Below are positions 31,201-32,770 of a DNA stretch of 64,000 nt, piece after piece. Under the pieces are notes generated by a model, which was given only the letters and a program-made list of their open reading frames with translations, had not been told where the DNA came from and did no database searches. Made by a program: the position numbers and the translations under genes. Each line of letters begins with the position of its first letter. Position 1 is the stretch's first letter. The DNA lies in NCBI GenBank assembly GCA_945897805.1, contig CAMDFX010000001.1, forward strand, positions 62,001-126,000. Direction: 5' to 3'. This DNA is from Chryseobacterium gleum. Lineage in GTDB: Bacteria > Bacteroidota > Bacteroidia > Flavobacteriales_D > Crocinitomicaceae.

Positions 31201-31587
31201 GCTGAACGATTGAGTTTGTATCAAAAATTAGACAGTTTAGAAAACCAAGAAGCGTTGGATAAATACGGACAAACTTTAATTGATCGTTTCGGACCTTTGC
31301 CTCGCACCGTAAAAGAATTGTTTCGTTCATTTGAATTGCGTTGGTTGGCCCAAGATTTGGGAATCGAAAGGTTGGTGATGAAATCTGGTTCAATGGTTTG
31401 CTACTTCATTTCAAATCCACAATCGCCATTTTACGATTCAGGTATTTTTCAGCATGTATTGAAATACATCCAAAGCAATCCGAAAGATTGTAAATTGAGT
31501 GAAAAAAACGACAAATTACGCTTGTTATATAGCCATGTGATGACAATTGATCAAGCGGTGAAAAGATTGAACGAGATTGTGGAGTAG
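28252..31587 (+). CDS. mfd: Transcription-repair coupling factor Mfd
   Basis: An 1111-residue superfamily 2 translocase that removes RNA polymerase stalled at DNA lesions and recruits UvrA. The N-terminal UvrB-like module includes FVYEPGQFAIRGGILDVFSF (about 163-182). The RNA-polymerase-interacting domain has GDYVTHIDHGVGQF (about 436-449). The translocase shows Walker A GDVGFGKTE (about 583-591), DEEQ box (about 684), TATPIPRTLQFSLMGARDLS and the motif VI region QLRGRVGRS. The C-terminal TRCF domain is present. Length matches the family. A MITE-like element begins only 5 bp after the stop. Confidence 0.96.
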   Translation: MNQAEFLQLFKKNNQVDQIANSLQQAEIRIHLKGLVGSSRAAIASAVASQVPGNHVFVLSDKEEAAYFLNDLENLFPNEKHIVFYPASYRSAYHFEETDNANVVLRAEVLEKINNGTNTWIVTYPQALFEKIPTQKKLTENTLKVQKGKTYSLDFMNELLLEYGFERLDFVYEPGQFAIRGGILDVFSFANDLPFRVEFFGDEVDSIRTFDPVDQLSVNNHDFFNIIPNVQRHLMQDGFGTFLDFVGKQSTLWVSSNQLIVNMLSKEYDKAVKIYEGLNHTIKQTIPSDLYTHKTEWLEKLEAFSVVEWGPDFSFKPTVEIAFKVQSQPAFNKNFDLLKEDLSARKKAGFTNLFFSNQPKQIERLYSIFEDIGADVEFISMPIALHEGFIFQDMKLVCYTDHQIFERYHRFKLKEGFSQAKQALTLKEIYNLQKGDYVTHIDHGVGQFSGLQTIDVNGKPQEAIRLIYKDGDVLYVSIHSLHRISKFSGKDGTAPKMNKLGTQTWTTLKNKTKTKIKEIAFDLIQLYAKRKSQPGFAFMPDTYLQNELEASFMYEDTPDQLKTTQAIKEDMESPTPMDRLVCGDVGFGKTELAIRAAFKAVTDSKQVAILVPTTILCHQHYRSFSERLKDFPVTVDYINRFKSAKQVTETLRKVAAGEIDILVGTHKIVGEKVKFKDLGLMIIDEEQKFGVAVKDKLKTMKVTVDTLTLTATPIPRTLQFSLMGARDLSIINTPPPNRQPVLTEVIQFNEEAIRDAIAYEVSRGGQVYFVNNRLQNIKEVSGMIQRLCPGVRVGIGHGQMDGKQLEKIMMDFIQGEYDVLLATTIIESGIDISNANTMIINNAQNFGLSDLHQLRGRVGRSNKKAFCYLIAPKYHEMTSEARKRLEALIQFSDLGAGFNIAMKDLDIRGAGNLLGGEQSGFIADIGFEMYQKILNEAMEELRESEFKDLFAERNTDQFVNFVKDCVIETDLEIRIPDDYVNNVAERLSLYQKLDSLENQEALDKYGQTLIDRFGPLPRTVKELFRSFELRWLAQDLGIERLVMKSGSMVCYFISNPQSPFYDSGIFQHVLKYIQSNPKDCKLSEKNDKLRLLYSHVMTIDQAVKRLNEIVE

Positions 31588-31887
31588 TAGTAACCTGAGT
31601 TCGATTATTAAAACAAAGTCAAAATTAATTTAGCGACTTGGTTGCTAGGCATATTTTATAAGGGATAACGAGTTGTCATGTTAAAATCTAACGAAGGAAA
31701 CAAGTTGTTAAATTAAGCAAGAAATACGCAAGTTCACCAATAAAAAGCAATCTACTTCCCTTTTTTGCACCGAAATATCTCGATATTCCGATTTAAAAAA
31801 TTTCGTATCTCAATATTTATAGGTGTTTTGACACCGCGTAGGAGCAGCCACGAATTGAAAGTTTGAATAATCGAACTCAGGTTAGTA
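31588..31887. mobile_element. MITE-like element with 5-bp target duplication
   Basis: A 290-bp element (31593-31882) ends in 22-bp inverted repeats: ACCTGAGTTCGATTATTAAA at the left and its complement at 31861-31882, 21 of 22 bases matching over the full arm. It is flanked by TAGTA at 31588-31592 and TAGTA at 31883-31887, a clear target-site duplication. It contains no transposase. The nearby stretch 31883-32086 is AT-rich and empty of genes. Confidence 0.82.
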
Positions 31888-32056
31888 AGGTAATGGTTTT
31901 TTTTGTAAATCGGAAACAACAAAAAAGATACCAATTGATTTTAATCTTAAAAAGAATACAATAACTTGGAAAAATATGGCAGGGTTGAGAGATGAACTTA
32001 TCCATGAAAAACGGAAATATTATCATCATCCAAAGACAAAATCGTGCAAGCAAATC

Positions 32057-32085
32057 CCTAATGCCTATTGCCTATTGCCCAAATC
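32057..32085. repeat. CCTAATGCCTATTGCC tract
   Basis: Short tandem-like units (CCCTAATG, CCTATTG, CCTATTG, CCCAAA) lie just after the SDR gene. A related tract lies on the other side of the SDR-DUF2805 pair (33140-33200). Confidence 0.45.
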
Positions 32086-32086
32086 C

Positions 32087-32770
32087 TCATCTCAACACAT
32101 TCATTCCCCCATCAACCGCTAAAATCTGCCCAGTAATCCAGCTTGATTTGTCCGACAATAAGAAAGTTACCGCATCCGCCAATTCAGTTGCTGTTCCAAC
32201 TTTACGCATCGGATTTCTTTTCTGTGAAGCTTCGATTTTTTCAGGCGAATTCAATAACTTTTCGCCCAAAGGCGTGTCGGTCAATGAAGGCGCAATACAA
32301 TTTACGCGAATCATTGTTGCGTATTCTGCAGCCAAAGCTTTAGTCAATCCTTCAATAGCGCCTTTCGCCATGGAAATAGAAGCGTGAAAAGGCATTCCAA
32401 CGGCAACGGCAACAGTGCTCATCAAAACGATACTTGCTGATTCACTGCTTTTTAAGTTAGGAAAATAGGCTTGAATAAAAGCAATTGCGCCCAAACTATT
32501 GATTTGATAATCACGCAAAAAATCAGCTTCGCTCAAACGGTGAAAAGGTTTCAAATTGATTGTACCAGGAAAATAAACCAATCCGTCAATTGTTCCTTCG
32601 ATTTTAGGAAAAGTGTTGAAATCGTATTTTTCGATGGTGTAAAATTCATCGTATTCAAAGCTTTCTGTTTTGGTTGAAATTCCAATCACTTTGTGACCTG
32701 CTGCTTGCAATTGTCTCGCACTTTCTTGCGCCATTTTGCTTGATGCTCCTGCAAATAAATATGTTTTCAT
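32087..32770 (-). CDS. SDR-family protein lacking the catalytic tyrosine
   Basis: A 227-residue Rossmann-fold protein of the short-chain dehydrogenase superfamily. The nucleotide-binding loop is FAGASSKMAQ (about 6-15, changed from the usual TGxxxGIG), then NSLGA, a serine in VLMSTVAV and the C-terminal GQILAVDGGM. Where YxxxK is expected the sequence reads ISMAK (about 151-155): lysine is kept but tyrosine is isoleucine. I recall a flavobacterial SDR group with the same change, often near DUF2805 and photolyase/cryptochrome genes. The start overlaps the DUF2805 stop by 4 bp (ATGA). Activity as a normal oxidoreductase is doubtful. Confidence 0.75.
   Translation of the reverse strand: MKTYLFAGASSKMAQESARQLQAAGHKVIGISTKTESFEYDEFYTIEKYDFNTFPKIEGTIDGLVYFPGTINLKPFHRLSEADFLRDYQINSLGAIAFIQAYFPNLKSSESASIVLMSTVAVAVGMPFHASISMAKGAIEGLTKALAAEYATMIRVNCIAPSLTDTPLGEKLLNSPEKIEASQKRNPMRKVGTATELADAVTFLLSDKSSWITGQILAVDGGMNVLR

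Follow-up and report, generated by a model that had tools for sequence, protein, structure and literature searches.

An IS982-type MITE behind mfd carries a hairpin module that is also found in Bacteroidota MITEs with other ends

We describe a short element directly behind mfd that is very probably a MITE moved in trans by an IS982-family transposase and carrying a hairpin module selected for the fold of one strand. Judged from alignments, it is the folded shape of this hairpin, and not its exact sequence, that is conserved across many small mobile elements of Bacteroidota, some of which have clearly different ends. We propose that an IS982-family transposase would recognise the ACCTGAGTTCGATTATT ends, mobilise the MITE in trans and duplicate a 5-bp TANTA-like target; the insertion site lies between mfd and a short-chain dehydrogenase gene convergent with it. 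The hairpin would be under selection for its one-strand folded shape, acting as RNA or single-stranded DNA, and probably helps the elements to propagate or to be tolerated, rather than serving the genes beside them.

The element lies at positions 31593–31882 of the window, the whole stretch of 64,000 nucleotides that was analysed (Table 1). It spans 290 bp, a figure that the initial annotation had assigned to the stretch between the inverted ends; the size stands, and it includes both arms. The two 22-bp arms (ACCTGAGTTCGATTATTAAAAC and ACCTGAGTTCGATTATTCAAAC) match at 21 of 22 positions in inverted orientation, TAGTA directly abuts the element on both sides, and the left TAGTA begins immediately after the mfd stop codon (TAG, 31585–31587), all in agreement with the first description. 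Also as described, no transposase lies within: the list of open reading frames of the region shows none inside this gene-less element. The identity of mfd follows from its TRCF, UvrB-interaction, CarD-like and helicase domains, and the 3' neighbour across the element, the short-chain dehydrogenase gene, lies on the opposite strand. A 17-mer of the end, searched with up to three mismatches, gave three matches in the window (0.19 expected), two of which are the exact element ends. At up to two mismatches a 16-mer of the end was found at 17 places in the genome, versus none for a reversed control pattern; the end pattern is thus not due to chance. The element has the features of a MITE: it is short, has terminal inverted repeats, a target duplication and no transposase, and occurs more than once in the genome. 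A scan for promoters and terminators found one terminator-like match, in hairpin A (0.6 expected), and two promoter-like matches (3.1 expected), and neither was counted as evidence.

Table 1. Parts of the element behind mfd (window positions).
Feature	Position	Strand	Basis
Left target-site duplication TAGTA	31588–31592		Flanking sequence, end-pair comparison
Left terminal inverted repeat	31593–31614	+	First 17 bp identical to one end of the L083 IS982 element; one mismatch to the other L083 end
Hairpin A, sense on +	31621–31722	+	R2 model, 80.5 bits, E 1.4e-13
Hairpin B, second copy, sense on −	31729–31829	−	R2 model, 62.2 bits, E 9.6e-10
25 nt missing in 265-bp relatives	31833–31857		Alignment A1; variant in the own-genome partial copy C3:15855
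Right terminal inverted repeat	31861–31882	−	Arm comparison
Right target-site duplication TAGTA	31883–31887		Flanking sequence, end-pair comparison

Searching the genome with the element end, as the initial annotation had proposed, yielded further copies, two of them with 5-bp duplications of their own. The second complete copy (C1:445543–445720) is 178 bp long, has an internal deletion and is flanked by TAATA. A 28-bp remnant (C11:37502–37529; L014 in the window's own genome, G000) consists of both tips within a TTTTA duplication. Partial copies lie at C2:213542–213708, C22:21549–21712 and C3:15855–15925, and a few lone ends are also present. Elements of ∼28–33 bp, namely this remnant and L087 in G018, are made of two element tips that are apparently fused at a TCAG-like microhomology; the flanks of the two G018 copies differ at the middle base, unlike the TTTTA duplication. 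Lone 17-bp IS982 ends are numerous and were seen at L016, L025, L202 and other loci, some apparently right at the stop codons of genes. One candidate origin of such solo ends, a deletion between the TATTA in the inner part of the end and the target duplication, predicted a large excess of TATTA over TAATA outside them; 11 and 9 were found among 40 solo ends, and the idea was rejected.

The element is missing at the mfd 3' end in all four congeners. This absence and the additional genome copies bear out the original reading of a non-autonomous insertion with a target duplication, and the insertion probably took place after the lineage split from the sampled congeners. The T-run that follows mfd in the congener G004 (TTTTTTTTGTAAAT) is the sequence found just to the right of the element in the window, so the original mfd flank seems to have been displaced; the suggestion that the element had replaced the mfd terminator is not supported. 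Further to the right, positions 31913–32007 hold a remnant of a HepT-like (HEPN) gene, with 86% identity over 95 bp to the inner part of a G004 gene. That gene is the HepT-like member of a nucleotidyltransferase/HepT-like pair behind mfd, and in the window the remainder of this pair was apparently lost by deletion, beside the MITE.

A parent IS with the same ends had been predicted for this genome, either now or in the past. We found such elements elsewhere in the family, and none in the own genome or the four congeners. With at most one mismatch, the end was present in 50 of 200 family genomes and in 14 of 24 genera (control, 0 of 200). In G017 these ends bound a 1027-bp element (L083) with a frameshifted transposase, the N-terminal piece of which matches the IS982 model NF033520 with 144 bits (cut-off 130). 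Three elements of 1026–1042 bp (L061, L067, L068) hold related transposases between such ends, and the ends at three further transposase loci (L324, L334, L356) are of the IS982 type. The four two-ended IS982 elements (L061, L067, L068, L083) resemble the MITE in their ACCTGAGTTCGATTATT-like ends (at most three mismatches) and differ from it in their length of 1026–1042 bp, their DDE transposase and the lack of a hairpin match at E ≤ 1. None of the four has an exact 5-bp duplication. We collected 61 end pairs, that of the window and those of many other loci in Bacteroidota. An identical 5-bp duplication flanks 36 of them and is of the form TANTA in 24; the other 25 have no exact duplication. 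A search of the plasmid collection gave no match to the element. NF033520 had no match in any of the five genus genomes, the own one included, and the predicted parent is therefore absent today; a MITE can outlast its parent, so none is required in the same genome. Taken together, the second copy, the shared IS982 ends and the lack of a transposase in the genus identify the element as a non-autonomous IS982 MITE.

Relatives of the element are found in other genera. Two genomes of genus g10 (G059, G032) carry elements of 265–266 bp that are 97–98% identical over 241 of the 290 positions, and over 241 positions the identity is 88–89% in g22, 85% in g17 and 79% in g11. Galbibacter and Psychroflexus loci hold full-length relatives with 74% and 71% identity. 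Matches at E ≤ 1e-12 were obtained in 15 of 240 family genomes (best three candidates per genome scored) and matches in 15 of 399 order genomes, all 15 within the window's family (best two scored); with so few candidates per genome, both counts are weak as negatives. The ∼265-bp class is laid out as end, hairpin, inverted hairpin, end, and the window copy corresponds to this form plus 25 nt. A number of further MITEs share its ends and approximate length; their alignment with it is confined to the ends or to a part of the sequence, yet they fold alike. In three genomes of genus g22 (L226, L227, L228) the element has the same flanks (gcttaata and taataagc), so the insertion looks inherited there. 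In Pedobacter borealis (L147, L155, L168) the same IS982 ends bound MITEs of ∼190 bp with a different long internal hairpin, and none of these loci matches hairpin model R1 at E ≤ 1.

The inside of the element consists of two inverted copies of a ∼100-nt hairpin, an arrangement that many relatives share; BIMEs also hold inverted hairpin pairs. We searched for the hairpin with a covariance model, R1, and with a broader model, R2, built from 52 hairpins. R2 finds exactly two matches in the window at E ≤ 10, hairpins A and B, and all matches in the own genome (three with R1, five with R2) fall within copies of the element. With R1, many ∼265-bp elements show the hairpin twice, in opposite orientations, each 5' side facing its own end; in others a single copy came up to E 1. 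The opposite arrangement is seen in two Saprospiraceae elements of 412 bp (L209, L214). At L288 two R2 matches (1501–1604 and 1665–1768) lie 60 bases apart in the same orientation, unlike the inverted pairs elsewhere.

We scored compensatory changes in four alignments. A3, which was aligned without a structure model, contains 26 of 31 listed hairpins; L116, L141 and L044 were left out as tests, L209 as odd and L226 as nearly identical to L228. Conserved loop letters, approximately CWAGGC on the 5' side, AACGNAG on the 3' side and TAGC/GCTA at the tip, stand between covarying stems. Among the 30 pairs of A3, 25 have changed on both sides, and the covariation is 0.663, versus 0.215 for shuffled alignments and at most 0.203 for slid partners. 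The other three alignments follow the model structure, which biases their pair counts in its favour: covariation is 0.627 in A4 (0.201 shuffled), 0.777 in A5 (0.208 shuffled) and 0.827 in A6 (0.199 shuffled). A4 comprises ten hairpins from elements with other ends, unused for R1 (ten of the 11 offered loci matched, L141 did not), and A5 was drawn from 41 chosen loci. A6 holds 64 matches, 61 of them distinct; some genomes contribute a second copy, and one entry (L283 406–510) is another match read in antisense.

We asked how widely the hairpin occurs outside elements with IS982 ends. In a phylum sample, six of 395 genomes match at E ≤ 0.001, the own one included; the other five carry hairpins in elements with other ends, and one of them, G577, has IS982-like ends too. 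R2 detects the hairpin in 36 of 395 sampled class genomes (25 of 196 genera), again including the own; six of the 36 (G000, G018, G017, G522, G577, G581) supplied R2 sequences, and further overlaps are possible. Both searches used strict filters and scored at most ten candidates per genome. Of 48 single-hairpin copies that were chosen for inspection, 47 have inverted arms around the hairpin (L401 gave no arms), with element sizes of 159–181 bp and a median of 163; double-hairpin elements measure about 255–271 bp, and one 302–314 bp. In a set of 27 loci, four had no inverted arms (L278, L285, L292, L298), and a further set had arms at 11 of 12 loci, those of L116 being weak (11 nt, one mismatch). 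By eye, at least eight end classes can be told apart besides ACCTGAGTTCGATTATT: GAACTCATCTTGAC, AGAGCCTGTTTAAA with its relatives, GGGTTTGATATAAA, an ATAC(C/G)AA type, TAGAGCTAAATTG, AGGCTTTGTAACG, GGGAACCTCTAATAATTC and AAGCTGAACAG, of which GGGTTTGATATAAA, AGGCTTTGTAACG and AAGCTGAACAG are represented by one copy each; L260 may add CGTTAAAAATGG.

Parents of these classes were sought by comparing 50 transposase loci (L321–L370) with 13 end patterns. There was one clear match outside IS982: in G621, AGAGCCTGTTTAAA ends bound an 860-bp element (L335) with an IS5-family transposase (NF033580, 139.9 bits, cut-off 110). L337 (1775 bp) fits one end pattern loosely, and the match of L362 looks spurious. 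For the other end classes the comparison turned up no parent, and in G522 no parent with GAACTCATCTTGACTTTTT ends was found. Whether one homologous hairpin has been passed among MITEs of unrelated transposon families, namely IS982, IS5 and those of six or more other kinds of ends, is in our view evenly balanced. Because it recurs in MITEs with other ends, the hairpin probably serves the elements and not the neighbouring genes.

One strand of the hairpin folds better than the other. A3–A6 comprise 122 distinct sequences, a few of them differing from another by a single trimmed base; RNA parameters favour the sense strand in 112 of these and DNA parameters in 117. The effect may be inflated, as the models were themselves made in the sense direction. 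G-T pairs exceed A-C pairs in A3 (61:11) and A6 (135:51) and less clearly in A4 (20:13), an excess to which model-based selection could contribute by favouring sense-strand wobble pairs. In A6, 22 unpaired cells fall at one position near the tip, a frequent mismatch that resembles A-C and probably accounts for much of the A-C count. The bias suggests that the hairpin forms on a single strand, of RNA or of DNA, and not as a cruciform. An alternative that we consider possible but less likely than not is that it works as single-stranded DNA instead of RNA, for instance on the lagging strand or within an intermediate of transposition or replication. One strand is favoured with DNA parameters too, the hairpin recurs in mobile elements with unrelated ends, and its orientation shows no bias towards neighbouring transcription: among 78 single-hairpin elements, 20 lie in tandem sense and 18 in tandem antisense. 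On the other side, an unsystematic look noticed no single-strand transposase with the elements, and IS982 and IS5 belong to the DDE families, which are considered to work on double-stranded ends.

The same 78 elements bear on a role for the host, in which the element would be a regulatory RNA or 3'-end signal recruited behind mfd. Its place directly after the mfd stop, between convergent genes, would suit such a signal, as would the excess of convergent (23) over divergent (10) sites; at the remaining seven, with open reading frames called by length only, no near frame was present on at least one side. Avoidance of promoters would yield the same convergent excess, however, and the element is missing behind mfd in every congener. 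An early bias towards sites behind a co-directional gene (17 of 25), which had suggested a 3'-UTR function, was gone in the larger set. Since sense and antisense are about equally frequent in tandem contexts, a host 3'-end or leader function is unlikely, and we regard recruitment behind mfd as very improbable; the hairpin probably serves the element. Scarcely credible, finally, is a plain IS982 deletion derivative with accidental palindromes: MITE transcripts generally fold into stable stem-loops, as stated in parts of PMC10969869, and short internal-deletion derivatives such as the 28-bp remnant exist, but compensatory changes lie far above the shuffled and slid controls in four alignments, including the structure-free A3 and the A4 sequences unused for R1, the same hairpin sits in MITEs with other ends, and the four IS982 elements with these ends lack it at E ≤ 1.

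MITEs are usually taken to be empty deletion derivatives with an interior of no importance. In the elements described here it is the interior that is conserved: compensatory changes have maintained a hairpin that is common to elements with different ends. This raises the question of why elements moved by different transposases have the same folded module. If a homologous hairpin has indeed been passed among them, it would be a selfish RNA or single-stranded DNA module that many Bacteroidota MITEs need or exploit, whichever transposase moves them; should it do something for the element, it would be a new ingredient of transposon biology and, through R2, a ready marker for this Bacteroidota repeat class, which was found in no catalogue that we searched.

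Rfam 15 has no match within 31400–32100 of the window at E ≤ 1. Across 20 related loci there were 25 Rfam matches, each below the gathering score and none on the hairpin save for a three-base edge overlap at L182. We did not find the module described in the open-licence PMC literature searched, and passages of PMC4596501 and PMC2864571 hold no description of it. The closest published case that we found is MITECca01, an IS982-derived MITE of ∼240 bp from Cardinium, reported in sections of PMC9769881 as occurring in one strain only, with intact copies of its parent ISCca4 remaining. Like our element, it is non-autonomous, has IS982-like ends and a similar size, lacks a transposase, is mostly intergenic and lives in a Bacteroidota host (PMC9769881, in part). 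Those sections describe no conserved hairpin module and no sharing across different ends. Unlike MITECca01, the class described here is spread across genera and families, and no parent was found in the genus. The structured MITEs and BIMEs (ERIC, NEMIS, RUP), as presented in parts of PMC10969869 and PMC3733652, are likewise short repeats between genes, and their transcripts form stable hairpins. In contrast to ERIC, NEMIS and RUP as portrayed there, the present elements carry one particular hairpin of ∼100 nt, in which loop letters are conserved and stems covary, and this hairpin recurs with unrelated ends.
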